Shown in pieces: positions 24,258 through 40,969 of a stretch of 64,000 bases of DNA. Numbering within the stretch: the first letter of the stretch is position 1; every line of letters begins with the position of its first letter. Below the pieces are notes generated by a model. It was not told the DNA's origin. It did no database searches and was given only the letters and a program-made list of their open reading frames with translations. The DNA comes from Flavipsychrobacter sp. (lineage in GTDB: Bacteria; Bacteroidota; Bacteroidia; Chitinophagales; Chitinophagaceae). The stretch is taken from assembly GCA_031292525.1 (NCBI GenBank), contig JARLGY010000019.1:186001-250000 (forward strand). Direction: 5' to 3'. The position numbers were made by a program, and so were the translations under genes.

Positions 24258-24579
24258 TGAAGACAAATAATTGAAGGTGCTGAATACTATTACGGCTACC
24301 AATCAGCAGGTAAAGCAATTCTTTTAATTCGTTTACGCTAAAGATCATTACCACAGATTTTGAGTCAGTAGGTATTTTTATGGCCTTTTGATCAGGGAAA
24401 GGATACAGGTTATGGGCAATATATAAGGCATCTACTGTGTCAATCAATTTATAGAACTGTGCCACTGATAGTGTCAATATCCCAGAACCAAAAGTAATCT
24501 GTATATGATTACAGCTATTACATTGCACTATGTATCCATGCTTATTGGCATTAAGTGTTTTGTAGTTGCACATCACCAT
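24247..24579 (-). CDS. Small conserved-type CxxC protein in the heme operon (DUF6686-like)
   Basis: 110 residues, no signal or membrane segment. The N-terminus has Cys4 and a CNSC pair near residue 20 (VQCNSCNHIQI), suggesting a metal or heme-responsive site; the rest is mixed alpha/beta. It resembles a Bacteroidota family I recall as DUF6686, of unknown function. The gene overlaps hmuS upstream by 7 bases and the receptor downstream by 11 (or more), so it is translated within the operon. A role in intracellular heme or metal handling is inference from position. Confidence 0.7.
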   Translation of the reverse strand: MVMCNYKTLNANKHGYIVQCNSCNHIQITFGSGILTLSVAQFYKLIDTVDALYIAHNLYPFPDQKAIKIPTDSKSVVMIFSVNELKELLYLLIGSRNSIQHLQLFVFNEN

Positions 24580-25595
24580 CCGGCTATTTGATCTATCAAT
24601 GCGGTCCAGCTTTCCAACTCGGGATTCCCTGGTTTACGTTTGCCAAAAAATTGGACGATCATTTCACCCTCCTCGTCAAAAACCTCAAGTGATGTAACAA
24701 TGCCATCCACGCTTGGTTTTCTTACAATAAAGGATTGTTTAATGGAAGATTCCCGTAAATGAAGGTTGAATTCAGGATCAAGCACATTGAACCATGGTCC
24801 CGTTTCCAATAAATTATCTACGGTGCCGGTATGTATCTGAATACAACCCCGATTGGCTACAAATACCATGATAGACACTTGTTGCTCAGATGCTGCCAAC
24901 AACATCTTACGCGTAGTATCTTCAGGTATTTCTTTTACAAAGCCAACGGGTGCCATTCTTAGTGCTTGTGTGCGTTTTAACTTGTACTTCCGCAACAATC
25001 CAAAGAACTCATGTGTATCTTTCAACTGCAGCCAGTCTTGCTGAAAAGCTTCAGCATCTATTTCGATATCCGGTATTTCTGCCTCTGCTGGTGCATATAT
25101 TGTAGTAACAAGGTCAGTCTCTTGTAGAGCTGCTTTATATTTATTGGCTATAGTATGCCATACCGCCACATCAGATTTTTCAGTCAGGTATATTTTATGC
25201 ACTGCCTCACCACTTTTATCAAAAAACTGTAAACTTTTGCGGTCGCCTTCCTGTACTGCAAAACCAAATTTCCAATGCATCATGAACAAGCGCAGGTCGA
25301 TATCCGGGTCAAGTACCAAACCCATATGGCCTTCAAAAGAGACATTGTTATAAACGCCCTTCCTTTCATGCACAGCATCATTATTGCGAGTCAGCGCCAT
25401 TACGTGCCCCATAGTGTGCACTTCTTTAAGCAATTCCTTAAAGTCGCCTTCCAATAGTATGTTTTCCGTGCTAAGCGCCACTAATACGGCTTCGCTGGTA
25501 TGCAGCTGGGTAGCGATATCCCTTATACGGGTTTTAGGATTATTGATCTTTGCCTGTTCAAAACGTTCTCGTATACTTGTTGTAGTTATTTCCAT
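24573..25595 (-). CDS. hmuS: Hemin-degrading/heme-handling factor HmuS (HemS/ChuS family)
   Basis: 340 residues made of two HemS/ChuX-like repeats, the first at about 20-165 (TMGHVMALTRNNDAVHERKGVYN, DIDLRLFMMHWKFGFAV) and the second at about 185-335 (ASEQQVSIMVFVANRGCIQIHTG, NLHLRESSIKQSFIVRKPSVDG). The family binds heme in the cytoplasm and passes it on or breaks it down to release iron. It stands 14 bases after the ATP-binding subunit gene and overlaps the next small gene, so it is a firm member of the operon. Confidence 0.92.
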   Translation of the reverse strand: MEITTTSIRERFEQAKINNPKTRIRDIATQLHTSEAVLVALSTENILLEGDFKELLKEVHTMGHVMALTRNNDAVHERKGVYNNVSFEGHMGLVLDPDIDLRLFMMHWKFGFAVQEGDRKSLQFFDKSGEAVHKIYLTEKSDVAVWHTIANKYKAALQETDLVTTIYAPAEAEIPDIEIDAEAFQQDWLQLKDTHEFFGLLRKYKLKRTQALRMAPVGFVKEIPEDTTRKMLLAASEQQVSIMVFVANRGCIQIHTGTVDNLLETGPWFNVLDPEFNLHLRESSIKQSFIVRKPSVDGIVTSLEVFDEEGEMIVQFFGKRKPGNPELESWTALIDQIAGW

Positions 25596-25609
25596 TGTAT
25601 AGTTTTTAG

Positions 25610-26398
25610 TTAGTTTGCAAATGCCGGTATAATTACCGGGTAGTTGTATAGTGAGTGGGTTAAAACTTTAAGCGGAAAATCATATACAGTACTCAGTACT
25701 TCACTGTTCAGCACCTGCTGGGTATTGCCGCAGCATACCATTATTCCATTTTTTAGCATCAGTATATTATCGGCATACTGCATACCCAGGTTCAGGTCGT
25801 GTAGCACAGCTATTACACAATTGCCTTCTCTGGCAAATTCTTTTGCAAGTTGCAGGGTTGTATGCTGGTGCAATATGTCAAGACTATTTACCGGTTCATC
25901 CATAAACAAGTAGCGTATAGGATGTTTGGCGGTGTAATGTACTTGTGCAAATACCCTTGCAAGATGCACCCTTTGTTGCTCTCCGCCCGATAAGGTGAGG
26001 TAGTTGCGGTGTGCCAGGTGGGTAATGCCTGTTTGGGCCAGCACATTGTTTACCGTCGTATGGTCTGCTTGTTGTGGCGTGTTGGCATAGTGGGGGTACC
26101 GGCCCATCATTACTACTTCATATACCGTAAATGGCAGGTTTAAAGCCGTTTGTTGATGCAGTACCCCTCTGAATTTTGCAAGTTCTGCTGTGGCGTGTTT
26201 ATTTAGATCGATACCGTCCAATATCACATTGCCGGAAGATGCAATGAGTTCTCCACTTAGTATTTTCAATAATGTTGATTTACCAGCGCCGTTACTGCCA
26301 AGTATCACCAATAACTTGCCGGGCAAAGCATCAAAAGAAACCCCCTTCAATATGTACCTGCCATTTACCTGGAAAGATATGTTTGTTGCCTGCATCAT
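25610..26398 (-). CDS. hmuV: Heme ABC transporter ATP-binding protein
   Basis: 262 residues. Walker A GSNGAGKST (about residue 35), Q-loop, signature LSGGEQQRVHLARVFAQ and Walker B LFMDEPVNSLD are all present, as in FecE/HmuV subunits of iron and heme importers. It powers passage of heme through HmuU. It begins one base after the permease stop codon, so the two are translated together. Confidence 0.94.
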   Translation of the reverse strand: MMQATNISFQVNGRYILKGVSFDALPGKLLVILGSNGAGKSTLLKILSGELIASSGNVILDGIDLNKHATAELAKFRGVLHQQTALNLPFTVYEVVMMGRYPHYANTPQQADHTTVNNVLAQTGITHLAHRNYLTLSGGEQQRVHLARVFAQVHYTAKHPIRYLFMDEPVNSLDILHQHTTLQLAKEFAREGNCVIAVLHDLNLGMQYADNILMLKNGIMVCCGNTQQVLNSEVLSTVYDFPLKVLTHSLYNYPVIIPAFAN

Positions 26399-26399
26399 G

Positions 26400-27449
26400 T
26401 TATACCCTTTGAAATTTGCGATCCTTGAGTAGTAGGTATAGAAAAAACGGTGCGCCTATGATAGCAGTTATGATGCCAATAGGAAGCTCTGCCGGGGCAA
26501 ATAATGTACGTGCCAACAGGTCTGCAACAACAACCAGCACTGCGCCAGCCAGCGCCGACAGAATAAGCAGGTAACGATGGTCAGGTCCGGTTATTGCCCT
26601 TATGATATGTGGTACTACAAGCCCTACAAAACCTATAACACCTGTCACAGAGACTGAGGCGCCAACACACAATGCCGTAAGCAGTACAATAATTCGTTTT
26701 GTCCTTTCGGTATCTATACCAAGATGTTGTGCATTTGCCTCGCCCAATGCAAATGCATTTAACGATTTTGACATGGCAGGAAGTACCAGCAAAGGGATGC
26801 ACATAAAAGGTAAAACAGCGGATAATGTACGCCATGTGGCTCCCCCCAGGCTGCCTAGTGCCCAAAAGGTAATGCTGCGCAGTTGTGCATCGTTGGCTGC
26901 AAAAGTAAACATGCCTGTTACCGCACCCGTAATGGCATTTATAGCAATACCAGCCAGCAGCATAGTACTTACAATAGTTTTACCATTTACCTGCGATAGC
27001 TTGTACACGACCAATGTTGCTAAAAAAGCGCCCACAAAAGTAGCCAGAGACAATGCATACATGCTTATAATGTTAGGCAGGTGTGCCAATAAATGATGAC
27101 CACACACAATGAAGACAACAGCCGCTACCGATGCACCCGATGATATTCCTATAAGGGCAGGATCGGCAAGAGGGTTGCGAAACAGCCCTTGTATTGTAGC
27201 TCCGGCAATAGCCAGCGTGGCACCTGTAAGCACAGCCATAAGCACACGGGGCAGACGGATGATGGTTAATACAGCTTCCTGTTCACTTGTAAAGCTTGCG
27301 TGCATAGCCATCCCTGCCTGTTTAGCAAGTATAGCTATGGTTTGCATAGGCGCAATAGTAACAGCGCCCATCCCCACACTCAACAATATAGTTATAAGCA
27401 GGATGGCCAATAATATTACGCTCACCCTATTAGGGTTTTTCTGCTGCAT
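26400..27449 (-). CDS. hmuU: Heme/iron ABC transporter permease (FecCD family)
   Basis: 349 residues with about ten hydrophobic helices. Family marks include RLPRVLMAVLTGATLAIAGATIQGLFRNPLADPALIG near residue 48 and GFVGLVVPHIIRAITGPDHR near residue 265, the latter being the contact region for the ATPase. It imports heme or a ferric complex across the inner membrane. It overlaps the substrate-binding protein gene by 20 bases and is followed at once by hmuV. Confidence 0.94.
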   Translation of the reverse strand: MQQKNPNRVSVILLAILLITILLSVGMGAVTIAPMQTIAILAKQAGMAMHASFTSEQEAVLTIIRLPRVLMAVLTGATLAIAGATIQGLFRNPLADPALIGISSGASVAAVVFIVCGHHLLAHLPNIISMYALSLATFVGAFLATLVVYKLSQVNGKTIVSTMLLAGIAINAITGAVTGMFTFAANDAQLRSITFWALGSLGGATWRTLSAVLPFMCIPLLVLPAMSKSLNAFALGEANAQHLGIDTERTKRIIVLLTALCVGASVSVTGVIGFVGLVVPHIIRAITGPDHRYLLILSALAGAVLVVVADLLARTLFAPAELPIGIITAIIGAPFFLYLLLKDRKFQRV

Positions 27450-28302
27450 TCAGTTTTTTTGAAAGTTCTGCTAGTCCTTTACCCACACGTGGACCAAACC
27501 CTGTAAGCAATTGCCCATCCATTTCTATTATCTTTTTGTTTTTGCCGGCGTTGGTCTGTGCAATGCCCTGCACTTGTAGCAACCCCGGTAACCCACCAAC
27601 ACTTTCAAGTCCTTTATCAAACATCAGTATTACATCAGGGTTAGCCGTTACCAATGCTTCAGAAGTTAATGGCTTATAATCGTCAAATCCTTTTATTGCA
27701 TTCTGGCCACCGGCAAGTACTATCATACTGTTTACAGCATTTTCTTTCCCGGCTACCAACATAGTACCTGCGCCGCGTGCATATATAAATAATACTTTGG
27801 GGCGCGCGCCAAAAATCATCGTACCAACTGTATCCGCGTCAATACCTTTGCAGATAGCAGCAGCTTTGTCGTCGCTTCCCAAACTGTCTGCAACCTGTGC
27901 GATCAACGATTTTGCTCCTGCAATGGAATGGTCCAGGTGAAATAACATTAACCTGATATTAGCAGCCCTTAATTGTTCTTTCAGTTCAGGCTTTATGTTA
28001 TCATCCAATCCAATTACTAGTGTAGGTTTTAATCCCATTATTGCCTCGGCAGACATGTCTCGGTTGTGGCCTACCTTAGGTAGTTTTGTTACCGATTCAG
28101 GGTATGTACTGGTCACATCAACTCCTTGTATTTTACTTTCCAACCCAAGGCTGCAAAGTATTTCTGTAATGGTTCCGTTTAACGATACAATACGGGCGCT
28201 GTTATCGGTTACCCCTATACTGGACGAAGTTGGTTTTTGATTGCATGACAAAGCAAGTATAGCTATGTAGCACATCAGTATAGGATAGAACTGTTTTTTC
28301 AT
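27430..28302 (-). CDS. hmuT: Heme ABC transporter substrate-binding lipoprotein
   Basis: 290 residues. A lipoprotein signal ends at Cys20 (AILALSC). The mature part is a cluster-III (FepB/BtuF/HmuT) fold: RIVSLNGTITEILCSLGLESKIQGVD opens it, KVGHNRDMSAEAIMGLKPTLVIG and GGQNAIKGFDDYKPLTSEALVTANPDVILM follow. It binds heme in the periplasm and delivers it to HmuU. A hairpin at 28319-28347 separates it from the T9SS HmuY-like gene upstream. Confidence 0.92.
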   Translation of the reverse strand: MKKQFYPILMCYIAILALSCNQKPTSSSIGVTDNSARIVSLNGTITEILCSLGLESKIQGVDVTSTYPESVTKLPKVGHNRDMSAEAIMGLKPTLVIGLDDNIKPELKEQLRAANIRLMLFHLDHSIAGAKSLIAQVADSLGSDDKAAAICKGIDADTVGTMIFGARPKVLFIYARGAGTMLVAGKENAVNSMIVLAGGQNAIKGFDDYKPLTSEALVTANPDVILMFDKGLESVGGLPGLLQVQGIAQTNAGKNKKIIEMDGQLLTGFGPRVGKGLAELSKKLNAAEKP

Positions 28303-28318
28303 ATTTTATGTTATGGTA

Positions 28319-28347
28319 AGCCTCCCTTCCTGTGTGGAAAGGAGGCT
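28319..28347 (-). terminator. Hairpin between the T9SS HmuY-like gene and hmuT
   Basis: A 12-base stem with one mismatch (AGCCTCCCTTCC against GGAAAGGAGGCT) around a 5-base loop, in the 58-base gap between the first and second heme genes. There is no strong T-run in the direction of transcription. It may partly terminate or stabilise the upstream message, letting the secreted first protein be made in excess over the transporter; that is inference. Confidence 0.5.
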
Positions 28348-28360
28348 CTATTGAGCTTAT

Positions 28361-29608
28361 TTATTGAACAATTAATTTTTGCTGAAGGTGGGTTCCCGGT
28401 GCTTCTATCTCAACTATATACATGCTTGTATGCAGGGTTGGTAATTGGTATTGGTGTAAGCCCGACGTAGTATCCAGGTTATCTTGGGCTACTAGTTTAC
28501 CGGTCACATCATATACACTTACCATTGCTGAAGGAACATTGGCATCAAAGCTATAAGCAACATGTATGGCCTGTCCATTCGATGGATTAGGATAAAGTGC
28601 AAGACTTGCAGCAGGTGCACCATTTACAGATGGAATGCTTGATGTAGCCAGCTTTTGCTTACTGAAAATGAAGTTGCCAGTTGAGCTGCCATCAAAGCCT
28701 GTAAACATAACCTTCCATATATCTCCGCTCAGTGGTTTCACAAAATACAATAGTGAATCCTGCACAACATAGGCTGTCCCGCTGAAGGTTTTCCAGTTAT
28801 AACCAATACTATTGATTGCAGAGCTAAAATTAGCGGTTGAATAGTCACTGTAAGTGCCTGCATTGGTTATACCGCCCAGTTTAGCTACCTGTACACCATT
28901 GTTAGATAAGACACCCGTTACCGTATATGCCATTGGTATGAATGCCGTATATTGGGTAAACACGAGGTCCCAGTTTACCGTTGCCGGTTCCCGGTCAAGA
29001 GCAGCATTTGTGCGTATTGAAAAATACCCGAAGTTTTTTCCTGTATAAGCTGACTTGTCAAGCGTTGCGCTTTGTAAGTTTGTACCGTCCAGGTTGGCAT
29101 ATTTAAAGGTATATATGCTGCCAGATAATGATTCTATCCATAGTTTCCGGTACGTAGTATCTGCTAGCTTTATGATATAGATGGAATCGCCTGTAACTGC
29201 GTGTGTGGTGATGTTATACAGTCCCCAGTCCAGGTCGTATGGGTTTGTTGGGTTTGTATAATTACCCATTGCACCCAACGCCCACGATGTATCTGAATTG
29301 TAGTGTGCTGTCCATGTACTTAAGCCGGTGGTATCTACTGAGCTCCATCCTGCTATGTCAGCTTTGGGGTATTTCCACAGGGTGGTTCCTATTACTGAAT
29401 TGATCATGATACCGGAGCCGAAACCAGAAACATCAAATGCAATATCCCAGTTTGCCTTGGGGGCTATTCCTTGTTGGTCGTTCTTTAAACTGTACCATAC
29501 TTGGTTTGCATAAAGTGTCCCGATCGATACGGTGTCAGTAATAACCTGCTGTGCATGGGTTTGTGTGAAGGTAGCTGCAAGCAGCGCCGATAGTATTATT
29601 TTTTTCAT
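28361..29608 (-). CDS. Secreted HmuY-like heme-binding protein with T9SS sorting domain
   Basis: 415 residues. Signal peptide 1-19 ending THAQQ. Two HmuY-like halves follow: KANWDIAFDVSGFGSG in the first, and ATVNWDLVFTQYTAF, SIGYNWKTFSGTAYVV and IWKVMFTGFDGSSTGN in the second, matching the lipoprotein at 21210 in order and spacing. Residues about 335-415 are a T9SS type A tail (ALYPNPSNGQAIHVAY, VSVYDVTGKLVAQ, SMYIVEIEA). It is probably a cell-surface or released hemophore. First large gene of the heme operon, 12 bases after a 39-codon small frame. Confidence 0.85.
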   Translation of the reverse strand: MKKIILSALLAATFTQTHAQQVITDTVSIGTLYANQVWYSLKNDQQGIAPKANWDIAFDVSGFGSGIMINSVIGTTLWKYPKADIAGWSSVDTTGLSTWTAHYNSDTSWALGAMGNYTNPTNPYDLDWGLYNITTHAVTGDSIYIIKLADTTYRKLWIESLSGSIYTFKYANLDGTNLQSATLDKSAYTGKNFGYFSIRTNAALDREPATVNWDLVFTQYTAFIPMAYTVTGVLSNNGVQVAKLGGITNAGTYSDYSTANFSSAINSIGYNWKTFSGTAYVVQDSLLYFVKPLSGDIWKVMFTGFDGSSTGNFIFSKQKLATSSIPSVNGAPAASLALYPNPSNGQAIHVAYSFDANVPSAMVSVYDVTGKLVAQDNLDTTSGLHQYQLPTLHTSMYIVEIEAPGTHLQQKLIVQ

Positions 29609-30103: not shown

Positions 30104-31126
30104 TCAGCGCCAACCCAAACCGGGTGCAACATGCTCCAGGATCGATGATAACAAATGTACATTGTAATCAACCCCAAGGGTATTGGGTATCGTTAAAAGC
30201 AGTGTGTCTGCTTCCTGAATGGCTTCGTCTCCTGCTAACTCCTTGATGAGTCGATCGGGTTCGGCCGCATAACTCTTACCAAAGACCGCACGTTTATCGG
30301 CTTCAATATACCCAAAGCTATCAGCACCTTTACCTTGCTGTCCAAAATAATATCTGTCCTGCTCGGTTACCAATGCAAAAATGGAACGACTCACCGAAAC
30401 TCTTGGCGCTTGTGTATGCCCAGCCTTTTTCCAGGCTTCTTTATATAATCTGATTTGTTCAGCTTGCTGGACGTGGAAAGGCTTGCCACTTTCATCAAAC
30501 TTTAGTGTAGAGCTTTGTAAGTTCATTCCATTCTCCGCAGCCCATACAGCGGTAGCGTTAGAGGCAGCTCCCCACCAGATACGTTCCCGAAGTCCTTTGG
30601 CATATGGTTCAAGGCGTAACAAGCCCGGAGGATTTGGAAACATCGGGTTCGGATTGGGCTGTGCAAATCCTATCCCCTTCAGTTTATCCAAAAATTCCAG
30701 AGCCTTCCGACGGCCCATATCTGCGTCACTTTCGTCTTTATTGGGTTCATAACCGAAATAGCGCCAGCCCTCTATCACCTGTTCTGGCGAACCTCGACTG
30801 ATTCCGAGTTGTAACCGTCCGCCAGAAATTAAATCAGCGGCCCCGGCGTCTTCTACCATATATAGTGGGTTTTCGTACCGCATATCGATAACGCCGGTTC
30901 CGATCTCTATTTTACTTGTCTTAGCGCCAATAGCCGCTAGCAAAGGAAAGGGAGATGCTAGCTGGGCTGCAAAGTGATGTACCCGAAAATATGCTCCATC
31001 TAAACCTATTTCCTCCGCGGCAACCGCCAGGTCTATCGACTGAAGCAACGTGTCACCTGCCGTACGGGTTTTATAGGCAGGATGATTGGACCAGTGGCCA
31101 AACGATAAAAATCCAATTTTTTTCAT
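30104..31126 (-). CDS. Luciferase-like (LLM class) flavin-dependent monooxygenase
   Basis: 340 residues in the bacterial luciferase superfamily. Typical pieces are FLSFGHWSNHPAYKTR at the start, DLAVAAEEIGLDGAYFRVHHFA (His-His motif), SPFPLLAAIGAKTSKIEIGTGVIDMRYENPLYM, and SGGRLQLGISRGSPEQVI for flavin phosphate binding. It uses reduced FMN to oxidise an organic substrate that cannot be read from sequence. A single gene close to the left end of the tRNA-Leu island but outside it. Confidence 0.9.
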   Translation of the reverse strand: MKKIGFLSFGHWSNHPAYKTRTAGDTLLQSIDLAVAAEEIGLDGAYFRVHHFAAQLASPFPLLAAIGAKTSKIEIGTGVIDMRYENPLYMVEDAGAADLISGGRLQLGISRGSPEQVIEGWRYFGYEPNKDESDADMGRRKALEFLDKLKGIGFAQPNPNPMFPNPPGLLRLEPYAKGLRERIWWGAASNATAVWAAENGMNLQSSTLKFDESGKPFHVQQAEQIRLYKEAWKKAGHTQAPRVSVSRSIFALVTEQDRYYFGQQGKGADSFGYIEADKRAVFGKSYAAEPDRLIKELAGDEAIQEADTLLLTIPNTLGVDYNVHLLSSILEHVAPGLGWR

Positions 31127-31327
31127 CTGTTACAAAGTTAATGAATAGTAGTTGAGCTAAGCACTCAGATCAGTTTTCCTGTCGTTGATGAAACTAGTCG
31201 AAGGGCGGTCTGTGGCAGGTATTTATGTCCAGGCTCTCCATGGTGGGTCAAGATTTACGGGCAGATGGATACCTCGATCGAGAAGTTAGTATGAACCTTA
31301 AATAGCTACTAACAAAAATTGCACCTA

Positions 31328-31367
31328 TGTTGTACCAAAGATAAAGGCCGCAAATTGCGGCCTTTAT
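31328..31367 (-). terminator. Terminator-like hairpin downstream of the tRNA-Leu fragment, beside a TGTTGTA repeat
   Basis: ATAAAGGCCGCAA at 31341-31353 pairs perfectly with 31355-31367. On the minus strand it lies about 18 bases after the end of the tRNA-Leu 3' fragment, where a tRNA terminator would be; it may be the original terminator of the interrupted tRNA. TGTTGTA at 31328-31334 is part of a 17-base sequence repeated at 31550-31566. Confidence 0.55.
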
Positions 31368-31380
31368 AACTCATTGATTT

Positions 31381-31443
31381 TCAAGTGCCCAGAACAGGAA
31401 TCGAACCTGCACTTCCTTGCGAAAAACCAGATTTTAAGTCTTC
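31381..31443 (-). other. Displaced 3' half of a tRNA-Leu gene (candidate island end)
   Basis: On the minus strand this reads as the anticodon arm (loop CTTAAAA), the variable region, the T arm and the acceptor 3' strand of a leucine tRNA, without any 5' half. It matches the intact tRNA-Leu at 40325-40408 over its whole length with few differences, and 33 bases (31381-31413 and 40320-40352) are identical. This is the form left when an element integrates into the 3' part of a tRNA gene and brings its own replacement 3' end. It cannot be a working tRNA. Confidence 0.75.
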
Positions 31444-31543
31444 GAAAATGTAATTTGACATGGCCTCAAATGCGCTTAAAGTGGCTATTTTACAGGGTTT
31501 TCAAATCGCTGCTGTTCACCTTATTGCAAGCAAAACCGCAATT

Positions 31544-31566
31544 TGTTGTACCTATGTTGTACCAAA
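31544..31566. repeat. Paired TGTTGTA repeats near the left island end
   Basis: TGTTGTA at 31544-31550 and 31555-31561, 11 bases apart, followed by CCAAA. The same arrangement (TGTTGTA, 4 bases, TGTTGTA, 2 bases, AAA) occurs at 40266-40288 at the other island end. One helical turn between copies suggests arm-type sites for a tyrosine integrase; no integrase gene remains. Confidence 0.4.
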
Positions 31567-31594
31567 TTTCATTACTTGAGGACTTCGCATCACT

Positions 31595-31738
31595 TCAATT
31601 TTCGTCGCTCTTGATTTTTTTAACTAGTTTAGAAATAAGCAAGCTATCCTCTAGCAGGCGATTATTATCTGGATGATCACCGCTTAGATTGAAATAGATT
31701 AAGATATAGACGTAACAATCGGTCAGTGATTTGGGCTT
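31595..31738 (-). pseudogene. Possible C-terminal coding relic inside the island end
   Basis: A 47-codon open stretch without ATG that reads like real protein (ILIYFNLSGDHPDNNRLLED, then SLLISKLVKKIKSDEN) and ends at a TGA. It lies between the repeat pair and the end of the Big_2 protein gene. It may be the remnant of an element gene; no family is recognised. The rest of 31127-31768 contains only the att features listed here. Confidence 0.25.
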
Positions 31739-31768
31739 TTACTGGATTTATATATTAATTTGATTAAA

Positions 31769-33907
31769 CTATTTGTTACACTTCACAAGTCGCTCAACTT
31801 TCAGTAAATGCCCGGTCTGGTCATATATTTTAAGCAAGTAGATACCTGATGCGAGTGCAGAAATATCCAAGGTTTTAACACCTTCTTTCCGCATTAATTC
31901 TCTGCCGTCCATGCCACCGACAGACACAGTTACGCGCTTGTCTGAAACAATGGTGACTATGGTAGAAGCAGGATTGGGATAAATGGATACGTCATTATTG
32001 ATAAGTACGTTCTCAATTCCTACACCGGTAATTGTCTTTATCGCGGACGTGCCTGTGCAACCGTTAACATCAGTTACAGTAACGGTGTAGTCTCCGTTGC
32101 TTGTTGCAGTGTAAGACTGTGCTGTCGCGCCTGCAATTGGGACTCCGTTCTTACTCCAGCTGTAGTTCGTAAATGTACCTGTGCTCAAAACAAGTCCCGT
32201 CGCGGTAACTATAGGAACAGGAAGCGCATTCACCGTCACAGTTGCAGTTACTTGGTTACTACATCCTCCACTACCTACTTTGTACGTGATGACGCTGGTA
32301 CCAGCACTGACAGTCGTGAGAATGCCTGTTGTACCGTTGATTGTAGCTACCGAATTATTGGCACTACTCCAGGCTCCCCCAACGGTATTGCTATGCAAAG
32401 TGTCTGGCTTGTTTAGACATGTATTTAGGTTTCCGGTAATAGGAGCCGGTGTTGCAGGTGCGCCAGAATTTACTGTAACTGTGGTGGTGCCAACAGCCGT
32501 GCAACCCATAGAAGAAGCAGTTGTGTTGAAGGAAATGTTAGATGTACCAACCGTTATACCCGTCACAAGTCCATTAGAACTGTTCACTGTGGCTACTGCT
32601 GTATTGCTGCTGCTCCATACTCCGCTGGATGGGACACTCGATAACGTGGTTGTGCCCCTTGGGCATAATGCTAATATACCACTAATCACAGGAATAGGGT
32701 TAGGATATACAACAACAGTACGGGTTGCCTGGCCTACACAGCCGTTAGTAGCTACGGAGTAATAAATTGTCGCTGTACCACCACTACCGTTTACACCGGT
32801 CACTATCCCCGTACTTGCATTACCTATGTTGGCAATGGAACTGGAACTGCTCCAAGTACCACCGGTTGTTGTGGTATTTAGTGTAATTGAACTACCGCCG
32901 CATACCGCTGAAGGCCCTGTAATGGGAGCCACTACAGGTAGTGCATTAACCGTTATCACCAATGTTGCGCTACCAGATGTAGTTGTATAGGTAATCGTCG
33001 TTGAGCCGGCACCTAAACCAGTTACTAACCCTGACGTGCTGTTTACAGTTGCTGCACCTGTATTACTACTTGTATAAGTACCGCCTGAAGGTGCGCCAGA
33101 CACAATGGTTGTCTCATTTGCGCATAGGGAAGTGCTACCGATAACAGTCGTACCAACTGAAGATCCGTTTTTCATACAACGGCAGGGTTGCCCAAATCCA
33201 CGATTCTGTGGATAGTTAGTGATTGTAGGGCCACCGGCATATGTTGCTGTACCAGCATATCCTGCGGCGACAGTCGGTGTTGAAGTCCACAATAAGCCCA
33301 CAGTTCCCGTACCAGTCATACTACCTGTGCTGTAATCACGGAATCCGGCTTCCGAGAGCTTTAGGTGTGATGAAAAGGCCGATGCTGAACTGGTTATATT
33401 TTCGGATGTACTGGCAAAGACACCTGCGTATTCTGCATATGATGGCATATGCCATCCTGTCCCTAATGCCGTGCATGGATCTTTACCGTTTGTCGCAGTG
33501 GCCGTGGTGCCGTTCCATGTATCCGAACCTGTGCCTGCATTCCAGAAATTGAGGTAGAAATTTGACCCTGTCACGCCAGTTGGATTATTAGTAGATGGTG
33601 CTGGTGCAGTTGTGCTTGTTGAGGTCTGGTGTCCATCATCCCAACGACCCCATTGAAAATAGTCGCCATAGGACGCCGGATCGGTTGCTGAAGTAGCCAC
33701 CTGCGTTGACCCTAAATTCTGTCGCAACCAGATATTTCCGTCAACAGTGCGGACAGATGTGAGTGTAACGGAGCTTCCTCTATAAGTGAAGCTGACTGTT
33801 CCTGTATTGCCGGGTGTGAGACCAGGGTCGACTGAGGTCTGAGCTAAACCGGTCAACGTGCTAGCAAGTCCAGCAAATAGGAGTAAATACTTTTTCATAA
33901 GATACAA
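31769..33907 (-). CDS. T9SS surface protein: FISUMP domain, Big_2 repeats and sorting domain
   Basis: 712 residues. Signal peptide to about residue 22. Residues about 40-250 match a FISUMP-type (Fibrobacter succinogenes major paralogous) domain: GNIWLRQNLGSTQVAT, YGDYFQWGRWDDGHQ and DPCTALGTGWHMPSYAEYAG. From about 255 to 590 there are four or five Ig-like Big_2 repeats with the theme GGTYTSSNTGAATVNSTSG-LVTG. A last Ig-like module (YSWSKNGVPIAGATAQSYTA) precedes a T9SS tail (VSIYPNPASTIVTIV ... LASGIYLLKIYD). A likely adhesin or matrix protein. Its final modules closely match those of the 1035-residue protein at the other side of the two-component genes. Confidence 0.88.
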   Translation of the reverse strand: MYLMKKYLLLFAGLASTLTGLAQTSVDPGLTPGNTGTVSFTYRGSSVTLTSVRTVDGNIWLRQNLGSTQVATSATDPASYGDYFQWGRWDDGHQTSTSTTAPAPSTNNPTGVTGSNFYLNFWNAGTGSDTWNGTTATATNGKDPCTALGTGWHMPSYAEYAGVFASTSENITSSASAFSSHLKLSEAGFRDYSTGSMTGTGTVGLLWTSTPTVAAGYAGTATYAGGPTITNYPQNRGFGQPCRCMKNGSSVGTTVIGSTSLCANETTIVSGAPSGGTYTSSNTGAATVNSTSGLVTGLGAGSTTITYTTTSGSATLVITVNALPVVAPITGPSAVCGGSSITLNTTTTGGTWSSSSSIANIGNASTGIVTGVNGSGGTATIYYSVATNGCVGQATRTVVVYPNPIPVISGILALCPRGTTTLSSVPSSGVWSSSNTAVATVNSSNGLVTGITVGTSNISFNTTASSMGCTAVGTTTVTVNSGAPATPAPITGNLNTCLNKPDTLHSNTVGGAWSSANNSVATINGTTGILTTVSAGTSVITYKVGSGGCSNQVTATVTVNALPVPIVTATGLVLSTGTFTNYSWSKNGVPIAGATAQSYTATSNGDYTVTVTDVNGCTGTSAIKTITGVGIENVLINNDVSIYPNPASTIVTIVSDKRVTVSVGGMDGRELMRKEGVKTLDISALASGIYLLKIYDQTGHLLKVERLVKCNK

Positions 33908-34048
33908 ATATGTACTTACAAATGTATCTACCCCTATAAGCGAAAAACAGGGGCAATTGCCCTGAATTTTTAGTAAGTTGGTTAAAAGGGCAGACCGTTT
34001 GAAAAGAAATGGTACATTGGTAATGCTATAATAGAGACTGAATAATTC

Positions 34049-36025
34049 ATGCGAGCATACCAGTTAATAATGCTATTATCATGCTTGATCCTGTACACCC
34101 TTGCGCAGGGACAGGATAATAATACAGCTTTCAGCACCTCGAATTACCTGCCATCTAGGGACACTGCAATTATCAGGAATGCCATGACCATTGCTTTGGA
34201 TATCGAAACTATTTATCCGGACAGTGCTTACATGATATATCAAAGGACTTTTAAAGAAAGTATTGAGCGAAATTTTGACTTCGGTATCGCGAATTCATTG
34301 CGAAGGATGGGAGACCTAAAAGCAAAACGGGAAGATTTTGTAACAGCACGCCTGTTTTATAATAAATCGATCCAGTACTGTATGACTAGGCCTTCTCTGG
34401 GTTTTATGCTCCCCAATCTATTTAATAATGTAGGAATTTCATATCAGAACATCGGTCAATATGAAAATGCAATTGCAGCCTACACTAAGGCATTACAGAC
34501 AAAAGATCAGTATCCTGGCACCACTCTTGAAAAATCTGCTGTCCTTCTAAATCTAAGTGGACCCTTTATATCCTTGAGACAATACAAGAGTGCAAACAGG
34601 TATCTAGATCTTGCAGCGAGCGAAGCATTGAAGCAGAACGACAATAAGCTGTATCAGGAAGCATTAGAAAACAAAGGATGTGTTGCGGGGCTACAAAGGG
34701 ATTATCAAGCCGGTAAAAAATATTTTGAGGAGTCGATTGAAATTTCCGAAAGGTATCATTTTAATAAAAATACTGCTCTTATTAATATTGGCGTTATTGA
34801 TTATCTCCAAAAGGACTATGATACCGCCCTTTCAATACTGCTGAACACTCTATCGAAAACAGATGCCATAAGCAAAACAGATCGAGTAACAGCCCTGAAA
34901 ACTATCGGAGAGCTTTATCTAACAGAGAAGAAGTACGATAAAGCTGAAGGGTATTTATTGCAGGCATTAAAGGAAAGCAGGGGGTTGCATCAGCCTGAAT
35001 ATATTGCAGAATGTAGCGGCTTCTTGGCTAATTTGTACAAGGAAACTGGCAATTTTAAGAAAGCAATTCAATTCCAGGATTCTTATATGCAAATTAAGGA
35101 TAGCCTGAACAGCATCGAAGTTTCGAGGAATGTGAATACACTTGAGATCAACTATCGGACTGCACAGAAAGATAAGACGCTAGCAGAACAGCAACTAACT
35201 ATTGTTAAGCAGCAAAACGGAATGAAAGCGATGGCTTTATGGATACTTGCGATCGGGTCAGCTTTACTTTTGTTATTAATAACATTGTTAGCCGTACGGC
35301 ATATGTATCGCAACAAACAGGTTAAGTTGAATCAGCAGCTTTATCACCAACAACAGGCTGAGATACTGCTTCGACAGCAGAAAGAACTCGAATTGCTGAA
35401 AGCGACTATGGCAGGTGAAGAAAAGGAGCGTGAACGCATTGCCCGTGAACTTCATGATGGGATAGGGGGAATGCTGGCAGCAACTAAAATGAAGGTGAGT
35501 ACCAGACAAACGATGGTTGATCCGGATGTTCATAAGGAGCAGATTTTGGCGATGTTGACTGCCACTGCCGATGAAGTGCGCAAAACAGCTCATAACTTGA
35601 TGCCCGATGTGCTCATAAAAAATGGTCTTGAAAATGCACTGACAATTTATTGTGACGCAATTAGTTCAGCTGGAAATTTACAGTTGGACATTGATTTCCA
35701 GGGAATGCCATACCACTTAAGTAAAGCAGCCGAACTCGTTATTTATCGGATAACACAGGAGCTGATACAGAACGTTATTAAGCATGCCGACGCAACCGTT
35801 ACCGCCGTTCTGATTAAGAAATTAAAAAACAAGTTCAGTGTTATTGTAGAGGATGATGGTGTGGGGTTTAATAACGATATATTACACGAGGGTTTGGGTT
35901 TACAAAACCTACGTTTCCGAGTGCTGGCCCTGCAGGGAAATATTGAAATCAGTTCATCACTGGGGAAAGGCACACTCGTACACATAGACTTTGATATTGA
36001 GCGATTACAAGATAAAATAGCCTAA
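34049..36025 (+). CDS. TPR-containing sensor histidine kinase (HisKA_3 type)
   Basis: 658 residues. N-terminal signal peptide (LIMLLSCLILYTLAQGQ), then about six TPR-like helical repeats to residue 350 (FNNVGISYQNIGQYENAIAAYTKAL), a coiled coil, one membrane helix at about 394-418 (ALWILAIGSALLLLLITLLA) and a second coiled coil. The HisKA_3 box is ERIARELHDGIGGML with the phospho-acceptor His469; the HATPase has EDDGVGFNN and GLGLQNLRFRV. The TPR part would be periplasmic, so it may sense a protein or envelope state. It ends 3 bases before the response regulator and is flanked by two T9SS adhesin genes. Confidence 0.93.
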   Translation: MRAYQLIMLLSCLILYTLAQGQDNNTAFSTSNYLPSRDTAIIRNAMTIALDIETIYPDSAYMIYQRTFKESIERNFDFGIANSLRRMGDLKAKREDFVTARLFYNKSIQYCMTRPSLGFMLPNLFNNVGISYQNIGQYENAIAAYTKALQTKDQYPGTTLEKSAVLLNLSGPFISLRQYKSANRYLDLAASEALKQNDNKLYQEALENKGCVAGLQRDYQAGKKYFEESIEISERYHFNKNTALINIGVIDYLQKDYDTALSILLNTLSKTDAISKTDRVTALKTIGELYLTEKKYDKAEGYLLQALKESRGLHQPEYIAECSGFLANLYKETGNFKKAIQFQDSYMQIKDSLNSIEVSRNVNTLEINYRTAQKDKTLAEQQLTIVKQQNGMKAMALWILAIGSALLLLLITLLAVRHMYRNKQVKLNQQLYHQQQAEILLRQQKELELLKATMAGEEKERERIARELHDGIGGMLAATKMKVSTRQTMVDPDVHKEQILAMLTATADEVRKTAHNLMPDVLIKNGLENALTIYCDAISSAGNLQLDIDFQGMPYHLSKAAELVIYRITQELIQNVIKHADATVTAVLIKKLKNKFSVIVEDDGVGFNNDILHEGLGLQNLRFRVLALQGNIEISSSLGKGTLVHIDFDIERLQDKIA

Positions 36026-36028
36026 TAA

Positions 36029-36667
36029 ATGTTGATTAAAATTGCTTTAGCAGATGATCATCCTATTGTTGTCAACGGATTGATAACAATGCTTTCAGAA
36101 TATAGTGATATTCAGCTTTTCGGCACTTATGCCGACGGAGATGCCCTTCTTGCAGGCTTGAAGTTGGCGCAACCGGACGTCTTGTTGTTGGATATTCAAA
36201 TGCCTGGGAAACAGGGAGATGAACTGGCATCTATTCTGCATAAAATATATCCTGAACTGAAAATTATTGTACTTACCAATTTTGACAGCGTTTTTTATAT
36301 TCAACAAATGCTTCAACGCGGTGTGAAAGGTTACCTTTTAAAGACAACAGATAAAGAAGTATTGATAGCGGCGATTAAAGCTGTTTATAATGGAGGAGAG
36401 TTTATCGACGATGTTTTTAAGAGTAAACTGAGGCACGCGAAGCATAAAGCTGCAGGTAGTATAAAGCTGTCATTTACCAGCCGAGAAAAGGAAGTGCTTC
36501 AATACATTGTTAATGGACTAACTAATCCTGAGATTGCAGAGAAGATTCATTTGAGTGTGCATACTGTAGAAAATTATCGGGACAGCATTCTACTAAAAAT
36601 GGATGTTAGCAATACGGCCGCATTGGTAAAAAAAGCAATTCAGCTTGGGCTTGCAGTATGGGAGTAG
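36029..36667 (+). CDS. LuxR/NarL-family response regulator
   Basis: 212 residues. Receiver domain 1-120 with acidic residues in ADDHP, phospho-acceptor Asp55 in LLLDIQMPG and the conserved Lys in KGYLLKTT. The C-terminal LuxR-type helix-turn-helix starts near 148 (LSFTSREKEVLQYIVNGLTN, then SVHTVENYRDSILLKM). It pairs with the histidine kinase 3 bases upstream. Its targets may be the neighbouring surface-protein genes, which is inference from position. The 285 bases after it hold only a short protein-like stretch on the minus strand (36760-36846). Confidence 0.94.
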   Translation: MLIKIALADDHPIVVNGLITMLSEYSDIQLFGTYADGDALLAGLKLAQPDVLLLDIQMPGKQGDELASILHKIYPELKIIVLTNFDSVFYIQQMLQRGVKGYLLKTTDKEVLIAAIKAVYNGGEFIDDVFKSKLRHAKHKAAGSIKLSFTSREKEVLQYIVNGLTNPEIAEKIHLSVHTVENYRDSILLKMDVSNTAALVKKAIQLGLAVWE

Positions 36668-36952
36668 CAGCGACCTAAACAGATGGGTACTTATTCCATT
36701 GAAGCAATGTGATATCTCTGCTTTTAGAATGCCCATAAACAAACGAGTGCTAAATTAATTCATACAATAATCCAATTGGCATCGTCAATGTTAAAGCCAC
36801 GATTGATAATGAGTTCGTGTGTCGATAGCGTTGACGAGCCAATGGATCAAGAAGTATTACTTTATTAGAGTAAATAAATCTGCAGGAATTGTAAGTATAG
36901 CGGTTTCTATATTACGACCAGGCCTCTTCTTTATGATGAATAACGACTGGAA

Positions 36953-39900
36953 TTACATTGTCTTTACGACTTTCTCAACCTTTATTAATACCCCGTTTAT
37001 ATCCATAAATCGGAGTAGGTATAAACCTGTCGCCAATGAGCTTGTGTTGATAATCGAAGGCTTACCGGCTGTAACATCAGTATGCAGTAACAATTTACCA
37101 TCGACAGTCACTACCGAAACGCTAACTGGTACAGCAGTGCTAATATAAAGCACATCGTTTGCTGGGTTAGGATAGACGGAAATACCATAGGCGGTTGAGA
37201 TCGTGTTAACCCCTACGCCGGTTATTGATTTGATCGCCGAAGTCCCAGTGCATCCATTAGCATCTGTAACAGTAACTGTATAATCTCCATTGCTGGTTGC
37301 TGTATAAGATTGAGCATTTGCACCAGCTATTGGCGTACCACTCGTGCTCCAGCTATAGCTTGCAAATGTGCCGGTGCTCATAGTAAATCCTGTTGTTGTT
37401 ATGCTTGGTACTGGAAGTGCGTTCACGGTAATTGTTGCTGTGGCATTGCTAGTGCAGGTGCCACTTGCGACTGTATAAGTAATAATACTGGTGCCCGGTG
37501 CTACAGTTACAATGATGCCGGATGTAGCATCAATAGTAACCACTGTAGCGGTAGCGCTCGTCCATACACCACCGGTGCTAACACTCTTTAATGTGTCTAT
37601 TGCTCCTAAACAAATAGAGCTAGCACCTGTAATTACGGGTACTACTGGCAATGCATTTACGGTGATTGTTGTTGACGCACTATTGCTGCAAGAGCCACTG
37701 GTAATTGTGTAGGTCATGATACTGGTACCGGGAGCCACAGTTGTAATGATACCGGTCGCGCCGCCTATCGTCGCTACTAATGGGGTTGCACTCGTCCATA
37801 CACCGCCTGTGGTTATGCTATGCAAAGTATCCGCGGCACCCATACAAATATTCGTTGAGCCTGTTACTACAGGTGCGGCAGGCAAAGCATTTACAGTGAC
37901 AGTAGCAGTGCTGGAAGCAGGGCAAGTAGCTGAACCATTATTATAAGTAATCACCGATGTACCTGCTGCAACGCCGTTTACAAGTCCTGATGTACTGTTG
38001 ATCGTAGCGGTAGATGTTGTGCCACTGCTCCAGGTACCGCCTGTTGGCAAGGCCGACAAAGCAGTGCTGCCGCCAGCGCATAGTGCAAGCGTCCCGCTTA
38101 TAACAGGATTGATTGCGGTTCCAACGGTTACCGTAACGGTGGAGTTGTTGGTGCAGCCGTTGGTTGTCACAGTATATGTCACCGTTGCATTCCCCGCAGT
38201 GCCACCTGTAACAACCCCTGAAGATGCAGCGACACCAGCTACAGTAGCATTGCTGGTCGTCCAACTCCCACCGGAAGTAGTATTTGCAAGTGTGATCGTT
38301 CCACCTGGGCAAATTGGGCCATTACCTGTAATAGGTGCGACAGTTGGAATAGGATTAACACTCATGGTGTAATTGGCAGAACCAGATGCCGTGGTATAAG
38401 AAATAGTAACTGTGCCTGCTACTAGGCCGGTGACAACCCCTGTAGTGCTATCAACGGAAGCTACGACAGTACTGCCGCTACCGTAACTGTAACTGTAAGT
38501 TCCACCGCTCGGTGTTCCTGTAAGTGCGGCAGTGGCGCCAATGCAAACAACGTTTGGCCCGGAAAGCGTGACTCCGTTTGAAACTGTAAACTCATAGGCG
38601 CCTGCATCAGGATGCGTGGTGCTTCTCAAAGAATTTGTAATATCAGTAAGGGTGCCCACAGGCGTACCCATATTGTCGATTGTATTTACTGTGGGTATTA
38701 AATTATTAGGTGCCGGTAATGTAAAAGCCGGATTTATATTTTTACTATGGGCATCTTGTGCAGGGCTAGCTGCCTGCCATCCAGCCAGCGAGGTGTAGCC
38801 TGTGCTTCCGTCGGTATATAGGTTGTTTGTACCGGCTGTAGCCATGTAATAATCGTTATAATCCGTTGTTGGGTAAAGTGTGGCCGATGTGCTCCTGTAA
38901 ATAGCACTGCTCGCTGCCGTTCCTGATCTGGTTATATTAATAATATTGTTTTTTATGATAGAGGCCGATCCTGCAGCACTTATCAATATTCCCCTGCTAT
39001 AGCAACCAGTGGAAACAGTATTATCCGTAAGACTAATGGTATTGTGATAGAAGTTAACTGAACCAGTGCTAGCATTTTGCATAGCTATTAAATTGCTGCT
39101 GTAATTATTGATATTGAATACCGCATTGTTTTCTACTAGGGTTGTAATAGTAGGAGTAGTTACCTTTTGGTTGACCGCAATGCCATAGCATGTAGATCCG
39201 TTGAAAGAATTTGAAGCTTGCACATCGAAAAGATTATGCACCTTATTCTTAGTTATAAATGAGGCATTATTGCTACCAGAATAAATACCGTAAGAAGAAG
39301 TTCCTCCACTTGCAGGTACTTGACTACGCGTTGGTCGGGAAATATCGTTACCAGTTACAGTGAGGCTACTATCAAGTGCCGTGTAGATGCCATAGTTGTA
39401 ATAATCTTTAATTGTATTTCCTGAGATGATGTTGCCTGTGTTGTACGTAGTTGTACTGCTGCCATAGACTAAAATGCCATAGTACCCGCCGTAAACAGTA
39501 TTGTTGAGGATCGTATTGTTCGCACCGTTGTTGCCCTCAGTTAATGCTACGGTAGGCGACCCGGAAATAACAATGCCCGCAATTGAACTGCTGGATACGC
39601 TATCAAACATCTTAATGGTAGAATTTCGAATGGTGTCGTACGTGGCACCAGCGGTGAGCAGGATACCCCACGAATTAGATGTCCCCGAATAACCGTTTAC
39701 CACAAGATTATTAATGGTCATGTGGTTTGTACCATTTAGCGTAATACCTGCACAATTCGTAGAGGTACCTGCAAAACTAAGCGTATCGCCATTCCCGTTA
39801 ATAGTAATGGTGTTTGTTGCTGATGTTCCTGTAACTGCGGGGAAAATCACTTGCCCGGAATAAGTGCCCGGGTGCACATTTAATGTTACGGGTCCTGTAA

Positions 39901-40060
39901 CTCCTCCAGCCAATGCTGTCGCTGCATCAGTAAAAGAAGCAAAGTTGGTACCTGCAGTCGCCGAAGCGCTGTTGATAGTATAAACACCAGAAAGCTGGCC
40001 ACGGGCAATACCAGTAGTAGCAAGTGCCAATACAATAAGAAACAATAATTTTCTACTCAT
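36953..40060 (-). CDS. Large T9SS surface protein: beta-helix plus Big_2 repeats
   Basis: 1035 residues. Signal peptide ending near GIARGQ. Residues about 30-490 form a right-handed parallel beta-helix (repeated N-rich turns such as NTILNNTVYGGYYGILVYG and GNIISGNTIKDYYNYGIYTA), a fold common in polysaccharide-binding or -cleaving surface proteins. Residues about 500-930 hold five or more Big_2 Ig-like repeats. The tail has an Ig-like module (YSWSTSGTPIAGANAQSYTA) and a T9SS sorting domain (ISVYPNPANDVLYIST). No catalytic residues of a known lyase are evident. With its partner at 31.8 kb it brackets the two-component genes. Confidence 0.9.
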   Translation of the reverse strand: MSRKLLFLIVLALATTGIARGQLSGVYTINSASATAGTNFASFTDAATALAGGVTGPVTLNVHPGTYSGQVIFPAVTGTSATNTITINGNGDTLSFAGTSTNCAGITLNGTNHMTINNLVVNGYSGTSNSWGILLTAGATYDTIRNSTIKMFDSVSSSSIAGIVISGSPTVALTEGNNGANNTILNNTVYGGYYGILVYGSSTTTYNTGNIISGNTIKDYYNYGIYTALDSSLTVTGNDISRPTRSQVPASGGTSSYGIYSGSNNASFITKNKVHNLFDVQASNSFNGSTCYGIAVNQKVTTPTITTLVENNAVFNINNYSSNLIAMQNASTGSVNFYHNTISLTDNTVSTGCYSRGILISAAGSASIIKNNIINITRSGTAASSAIYRSTSATLYPTTDYNDYYMATAGTNNLYTDGSTGYTSLAGWQAASPAQDAHSKNINPAFTLPAPNNLIPTVNTIDNMGTPVGTLTDITNSLRSTTHPDAGAYEFTVSNGVTLSGPNVVCIGATAALTGTPSGGTYSYSYGSGSTVVASVDSTTGVVTGLVAGTVTISYTTASGSANYTMSVNPIPTVAPITGNGPICPGGTITLANTTSGGSWTTSNATVAGVAASSGVVTGGTAGNATVTYTVTTNGCTNNSTVTVTVGTAINPVISGTLALCAGGSTALSALPTGGTWSSGTTSTATINSTSGLVNGVAAGTSVITYNNGSATCPASSTATVTVNALPAAPVVTGSTNICMGAADTLHSITTGGVWTSATPLVATIGGATGIITTVAPGTSIMTYTITSGSCSNSASTTITVNALPVVPVITGASSICLGAIDTLKSVSTGGVWTSATATVVTIDATSGIIVTVAPGTSIITYTVASGTCTSNATATITVNALPVPSITTTGFTMSTGTFASYSWSTSGTPIAGANAQSYTATSNGDYTVTVTDANGCTGTSAIKSITGVGVNTISTAYGISVYPNPANDVLYISTAVPVSVSVVTVDGKLLLHTDVTAGKPSIINTSSLATGLYLLRFMDINGVLIKVEKVVKTM

Positions 40061-40265
40061 TGTGAATAATTTTTATGTTTCAAATGTAGTGCTCATGATT
40101 GCCTGAAAACAGGGGCAAATGCCCTGAATTTTCCAAACAGTTAGACAACCTAAGCATCTATTCGCAATTATTGGGGATCAAGCGGCATACTGATCCAAGA
40201 ATAAAAAACAAGACAAGAATTAATCAAGAGGTCTTTACTGAATATTTTGGATTAATTATATGAAC

Positions 40266-40288
40266 TGTTGTAGGATTGTTGTAGTAAA
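40266..40288. repeat. Paired TGTTGTA repeats near the right island end
   Basis: TGTTGTA at 40266-40272 and 40277-40283, 11 bases apart, followed after two bases by AAA; this mirrors the pair at 31544-31566. It lies about 40 bases beyond the 3' end of the intact tRNA-Leu. The rest of the 40061-40265 gap shows no feature I recognise. Confidence 0.4.
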
Positions 40289-40293
40289 GAAAA

Positions 40294-40315
40294 AGCCGAT
40301 TCCTAAGAATCGGCT
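40294..40315 (-). terminator. Terminator of tRNA-Leu
   Basis: AGCCGATTC pairs with GAATCGGCT around CTAA; on the minus strand it is followed by a run of Ts and lies 9 bases after the tRNA end. In the island model it came with the element, while the hairpin at 31341 is the older terminator. Confidence 0.75.
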
Positions 40316-40324
40316 CTAATCAAG

Positions 40325-40408
40325 TGCCCAGAACAGGAATCGAACCTGCACTACCTTGCGATAACCAGATTTTGAGTCTAGCGCGTCTACCAATTCCGCC
40401 ATCTGGGC
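40325..40408 (-). tRNA. tRNA-Leu (anticodon CAA)
   Basis: 84 bases on the minus strand. The acceptor stem GCCCAGA pairs with TCTGGGC; the D arm (GGCGGAATTGGTAGACGC), the anticodon loop CTCAAAA giving CAA, a long class II variable arm and the T loop GTTCGATTC are all present. CCA is not encoded. The 3' end is the probable integration point of the adjacent island. Confidence 0.95.
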
Positions 40409-40438: not shown

Positions 40439-40969
40439 TTAGCGGGCTGCAAATCTATCAATTCTTTCCTGAATACGCAACAGGTATTTTTTTCTAAAGT
40501 AGTAATCTTTTATTTTCAGTAGTAATTCTGTTGTTTGTTCACCGCTATCGTAGCGTTGTATCAGTGGGCCTATCTCATTTTGCCAGTCATTCAGGTACCC
40601 GGTTACTGCTTCAATAGCATAGTTGCTGGGCTGGCCACTTTGGGCATTTTCCTCATATTCACTTACAGTCTCGTTTAGGTCCATCATCTCCATAAGAAAT
40701 GCTGGCGGCAAATTATATTTCTCTTCCTCTTCCAGCAGCCCATTCAGTTTCAAAACATAGGCCATTGTCCTGTCAGGGTCGTTAAACGTTTTATAAGCAT
40801 CGTTATTAAGAGCAGCCATGCGTAGGGCTTCCGCACGCTCATGCATCGGCGCCTGGGCAAAACGGTCTGGGTGCCACGTACGGCTTAGTTCATAATACTT
40901 GGCTTTTACCCGCGCAGCTACTGGATTAAAGCTTTGTGGCAAATTGTATAATTCAAAATGATTGGTCAT
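40439..40969 (-). CDS. hscB: Fe-S cluster assembly co-chaperone HscB
   Basis: 176 residues. An N-terminal J domain with the HPD motif at 33-35 (TWHPDRFAQ) and a C-terminal three-helix domain (about 95-176) for binding the scaffold protein. It stimulates the HscA chaperone ATPase during Fe-S cluster transfer from IscU. The genes for its partners are not in the window. It is divergent from the dehydrogenase gene, whose promoter lies over its start codon. Confidence 0.9.
   Translation of the reverse strand: MTNHFELYNLPQSFNPVAARVKAKYYELSRTWHPDRFAQAPMHERAEALRMAALNNDAYKTFNDPDRTMAYVLKLNGLLEEEEKYNLPPAFLMEMMDLNETVSEYEENAQSGQPSNYAIEAVTGYLNDWQNEIGPLIQRYDSGEQTTELLLKIKDYYFRKKYLLRIQERIDRFAAR

Follow-up and report, generated by a model that had tools for sequence, protein, structure and literature searches.

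Gene content and organization of the locus

ARAGORN predicts a single tRNA gene, tRNA-Leu(CAA), in the 64-kb window, that is, the whole stretch of DNA analysed here, and BLASTN detects a displaced 3' half of the same gene 8.9 kb away (Table 1). Both had been noticed in a preliminary description of the locus, which placed them on the minus strand about 9 kb apart with coordinates that proved accurate to 1-4 bases; the 33-base identical stretch reported there was recovered as the longest exact run common to the two copies (AGTGCAGGTTCGATTCCTGTTCTGGGCACTTGA). Each copy is followed by a terminator-like hairpin with an accompanying T-run. The hairpin after the displaced half, which had also been described before, is indeed present and is similar to the tail that follows the intact tRNA at an element-bearing site in a relative (L160).

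Four genes lie between the two copies, encoding a two-component system and two secreted Ig-like proteins. Neither an integrase nor a relaxase or phage gene was detected in the 9 kb by Pfam analysis of the four genes. A tblastn search with ten integrases of the family likewise gave no match with an E value below 0.2 in the stretch, in agreement with the earlier statement that no integrase remains. The gene for the 712-aa Ig-like protein occupies the place of the integrase in intact elements. A PADLOC search of the four genes gave only weak matches, between the DNA-binding part of the response regulator and CARF models, which were taken to reflect a shared helix-turn-helix.

Table 1. Features at the tRNA-Leu(CAA) locus. 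Positions refer to the window; the arm designations of the repeats are putative.
Feature	Position	Strand	Evidence and remarks
Worn P' arm repeat GTACAACATAGGTGCAAT	31318-31335	-	Pattern with 2 mismatches; after the terminator of the displaced half
Terminator-like hairpin behind the displaced half	31344-31366	-	Sequence
Displaced 3' half of tRNA-Leu(CAA), tRNA nt 30-85	31385-31441	-	BLASTN, 93% identity, E 7e-18
P arm repeat GTACAACATAGGTACAAC (GTACAAC type)	31545-31562	-	Exact match; 121 bp before the displaced half
712-aa Ig-like protein with T9SS sorting tail	31769-33907	-	Pfam Por_Secre_tail, Big_2
TPR histidine kinase	34049-36025	+	Pfam HisKA_3, HATPase_c
Response regulator with LuxR-type DNA-binding domain	36029-36667	+	Pfam Response_reg, GerE
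1035-aa Ig-like protein with T9SS sorting tail	36953-40060	-	Pfam Por_Secre_tail and Ig-like model
P' arm repeat CTACAACAATCCTACAAC, 11-bp period	40267-40284	-	Exact pattern match
Terminator-like hairpin behind the intact tRNA	40295-40314	-	Sequence
Intact tRNA-Leu(CAA)	40324-40408	-	ARAGORN; attachment site

An hscB-like gene (40439-40969) is located upstream of the tRNA, and this arrangement is kept in most of 80 related loci and in several genera of the family. The downstream side, in contrast, shows little conservation from one genus to another, as is typical of an insertion site. On the left flank, gene order is not conserved among the relatives, and the segment corresponding to positions 21210-29608 of the window sits elsewhere in one of them (G028). 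A luciferase-like monooxygenase gene in this flank (30104-31126) has copies that are 88-89% identical in G028 and in the congener G001, in different surroundings, and looks horizontally moved; by comparison, identity to G028 is only 59% for the hscB neighbour.

Paired repeats at the ends of the 9-kb stretch

In many relatives, tRNA-Leu is followed, usually 37-65 nt past its 3' end, by a word of 6-9 bases that occurs twice with a period of 11 or 12. The words seen include TTGCACT, TTTGCCAG, TTTGCAAAC, TTTGCACC, GGTACAAC, CTACAAC and others. Judging from their position, we consider these repeat pairs to be putative arm-type sites of the elements' integrases. If the inner pair were instead an operator for the integrase gene, the outer pair, behind the tRNA, would be left unexplained.

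With up to 2 mismatches allowed, the arm pattern has four matches in the 64-kb window, compared to 0.08 expected; three of these matches mark the ends of the 9-kb feature. The repeat behind the intact tRNA is of the CTACAAC type and is shared with the tRNA-Leu of one relative (G066, locus L170). The repeat before the displaced half is of the GTACAAC type; the exact pair occurs behind the intact tRNA-Leu at five related loci (L145, L148, L154, L160 and L165), and in three genomes (G061, G062 and G063) it recurs with the same 121-bp spacing, each time near an integrase gene. Furthermore, 53-54 of the 103 bases between this inner pair and the displaced half are identical, in an ungapped comparison, to the corresponding bases of G061-G063; the maximum in 2000 shuffles was 46, and none of 3000 random stretches of the window reached the observed value. 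The worn repeat is located 50 nt behind the tRNA half, a position matched at L145, L148, L154 and L160.

Given this worn repeat, the tail that follows the displaced half appears to be the terminal part of an element inserted earlier and is probably not chromosomal. The preliminary description had taken it for the original tail of the tRNA, a view that does not fit the presence of an element's arm repeat there.

Complete elements and displaced tRNA halves in related genomes

In G061, G062 and G063, identical GTACAAC pairs bracket elements of 42-57 kb. The inner pair precedes the displaced half by exactly 121 bp, and a 400-aa integrase, with the domains Arm-DNA-bind_5, Phage_int_SAM_5 and Phage_integrase, begins about 60 bp behind the inner pair. 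The 25-kb element of G066 carries the CTACAAC type at both ends; beyond its inner pair, the sequence resembles the beginning of an opposite-strand integrase gene, as in G061-G063. Complete elements have one repeat word at both ends, whereas in the window a GTACAAC-type P arm stands at the displaced half and CTACAAC, rather than the same word, is found behind the intact tRNA. An arm on both sides of the displaced half is also present in G001 (L085), where both are of one word, and in G030 (L090), where the two words differ; tandem insertions, each pushing the earlier 3' half outward, would produce this picture.

Six further displaced halves of tRNA-Leu were identified, located at C65:112133 in the genome under study (G000), C4:10300 and C24:9702 in G001, C10:102167 in G028, C11:65145 in G030, and C10:570 in G004. 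All six begin at tRNA nt 30-32, in the anticodon loop, as does the half in the window, and those in L085, L086 and L090 adjoin tyrosine integrase genes (Phage_int_SAM_5, Phage_integrase). The constant start at the anticodon stem-loop fits the trace left by an anticodon-loop integrase and suggests that the crossover occurs in this loop. Because the displaced half in the window starts at the nucleotide typical of integrase-bearing elements and the arm repeats survive, site-specific insertion is supported. The earlier interpretation of the locus as a tRNA-Leu island holds in this respect and with regard to the loss of the integrase, but not as a single clean island, given that the repeat words differ between the ends.

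The same features bear on the proposal that the pair goes back to a gene duplication or to a former tandem array of tRNA-Leu. The sequence identity of the copies (93%) speaks for such an origin, but the fragment has no 5' half, starts at the same nucleotide as the integrase-made halves elsewhere and is flanked by arm repeats on both sides, which makes this origin highly improbable.

Several additional observations concern this tRNA and its repeats. The other displaced half in the genome under study (C65:112133-112194; L087 9143-9195) is associated with TTGCACT-type repeats, and most of its neighboring genes match those next to the displaced half in C24 of the congener at 98-100% identity, indicating that they were recently shared. 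At L135 (4338-4655), the last 41 bases of an intact tRNA-Leu are repeated twice more behind it, within 240 bases and each time with a terminator, a leftover of repeated insertion and loss. A 51.7-kb viral contig (IMGVR_UViG_3300048834_001057; L243, L244) carries the GTACAACATAGGTACAAC pair, once beside an integrase gene, and no tRNA-Leu half, so that this arm type is presumably used there at another target; the CTACAAC repeat had no match among the viral contigs. In G072, a GTACAAC pair (L236 2605-2622 and 18959-18976) brackets about 16 kb beside an apparent 3' half of another tRNA, which reads like tRNA-Phe, so that one arm type appears to be used with different tRNA targets.

Sequence divergence of the two halves and the empty site

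The preliminary description took the differences between the halves, together with the missing integrase, as a sign that the insertion is old or was a non-autonomous cassette. As far as age is concerned, this reading of the differences is only partly sustained. The change of CTCAAAA to CTTAAAA and an additional T look like decay. In contrast, variable-arm variants such as TTTTCGCAAGGAAG are present in working tRNAs of relatives, so part of the mismatch is not due to ageing.

A comparison of an occupied with an empty site, made between G061 and L141 and hence outside the genus of the window, points in the same direction. In L141 the tRNA is uninterrupted, and the gene that immediately follows it shares 73% identity with the gene behind the displaced half in G061; this half and the L141 tRNA share the variable-arm variant TTTCAGCAATGGAG and a similar terminator, whereas the rebuilt tRNA of G061 has another variant. 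Differences between halves, accordingly, need not mean age. The gene next to the displaced half in G061 has a homolog in G062 and G063 that is located 17-22 kb beyond the displaced half, a placement that also fits layered insertion. The conserved downstream neighbor of tRNA-Leu in the relatives was searched for in the genome under study and was not found there; in the sole congener, G001, whose genome is 69% complete, the contig stops 1.3 kb past the tRNA.

Origin of the four genes

A search of 196 other genomes of the family, including the congener, gave no match to the histidine kinase at E<=1e-100. The tetranucleotide usage of the 9 kb deviates from that of the rest of the window by 0.201, compared to at most 0.151 for the other 8.9-kb segments tested, and the part comprising the kinase and the regulator, taken alone, deviates by 0.283, compared to at most 0.258; the deviation may come partly from the repetitive Ser/Thr-rich proteins. 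By G+C content, there is no difference between the stretch and its surroundings (0.433 and 0.426, respectively). The tetranucleotide usage and the kinase without a match in the family support, but do not prove, the view that the cargo came in from outside.

These data weigh on the alternative that the four are ordinary chromosomal genes, bracketed by two att relics through rearrangement or deletion. This account differs from the one that we favor, a composite remnant of successive insertions, solely in the origin of the four genes. It would be in keeping with the intactness of these genes, their normal G+C content, the membership of the cargo in protein families that are common in this group of genomes, and the variable gene order left of the site, but sits poorly with the atypical tetranucleotide usage and with a kinase that lacks a close counterpart even in the congener. 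We consider it rather unlikely.

A probable composite remnant of successive insertions

The explanation that best accounts for the locus, to which we assign a probability of about 0.78, is that elements with tyrosine integrases were inserted successively at tRNA-Leu(CAA) and that a deletion then removed the integrase or integrases, leaving the 9 kb as a composite remnant. Under this scenario, the elements would insert one after another at the anticodon loop. The attP of each element would contain the 3' half of the tRNA together with a terminator, so that each insertion would rebuild the tRNA and push the prior 3' half outward; the hairpin behind the intact tRNA would, then, have been supplied by an inserted element. 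Each element would carry arm-type direct repeats, with one word at both ends and the inner repeat beside the integrase gene.

The order in the window can be read as tRNA, CTACAAC-type P' arm, 9 kb of cargo, GTACAAC-type P arm, displaced half, and another GTACAAC-type P' arm. In the simplest history, two or three elements would have inserted in tandem, and a deletion would then have fused the front part of one, of the CTACAAC type, to the rear part of another, of the GTACAAC type, with the loss of the integrase or integrases; the four genes, which probably arrived with one of the elements, would have been left fixed in place. Points that weigh against this account are the lack of any integrase, relaxase or phage gene in the 9 kb, the unremarkable G+C content, the comparison with an empty site only outside the genus, and the failure to find the usual downstream neighbor of the tRNA in the genome under study.

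The preliminary description offered as an alternative a single non-autonomous 9-kb cassette, which would have been inserted once by an integrase acting in trans. Arm-type repeats at both ends and a tRNA pair in the right order and orientation are what such a cassette would leave behind. The repeat words at the ends differ, however, unlike those of complete elements, and an arm is present also on the outer side of the displaced half, so that a cassette of this kind appears quite improbable. The same two observations, namely, the two repeat types at the ends and the arms on both sides of the displaced half, favor the composite remnant over a single island.

A more general possibility, which we regard as doubtful, is that the paired repeats next to the tRNA constitute a readable code of integrase types. 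If so, the lost integrases of integrase-less islands in Bacteroidota could be assigned and the layers of insertion read in order, with the window as a three-layer example.

Comparison with known systems

The ICE, IME and prophage classes are defined by conjugation, relaxase or phage structural genes, and the 9-kb stretch contains only the four cargo genes. The worn tRNA island is still recognizable because the arm repeats, and the constant spacing between them and the tRNA half, outlast the integrase. Otherwise, such sites would be overlooked by annotators, given that island finders such as Islander need an integrase. Moreover, tRNA-Leu(CAA) behind hscB emerges as a recurrent insertion site across the family, with tandem layering.

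NBU1 of Bacteroides is, like the elements discussed here, a Bacteroidota element with a Leu-tRNA target. The passages on NBU1 in PMC8138268 describe its insertion at the 3' end of the gene (citing Shoemaker 1996) and place it with the IntCTnDOT subgroup of tyrosine recombinases. Compared to NBU1 as described there, the displaced half in the window starts at the anticodon loop, and no mobilization or integrase gene is left.

The closest counterparts are the elements of G061-G063 (42-57 kb) and G066 (25 kb), which resemble the window in target, arm repeats and spacing but have kept the integrase (apparently so in G066) and carry arms of the same word at both ends. Their sampled cargo is different, consisting of GmrSD and MmeI-type restriction genes, an efflux transporter and, in G066, a TrwC relaxase.

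Among the tRNA islands collected by Islander, 2083 were counted as anticodon-centered, and tandem arrays are known (PMC4383910). The window shares with these islands an intact tRNA with a displaced 3' end fragment downstream in the same orientation, a length (8.9 kb) within the range of 2-200 kb and the anticodon-centered class. It differs in that it contains no integrase gene, on account of which the Islander filter would reject it, and in the unlike arm words at the ends. The 9-kb stretch is a degraded representative of an already known class of islands, and its recognition by the arm repeats is the useful part.
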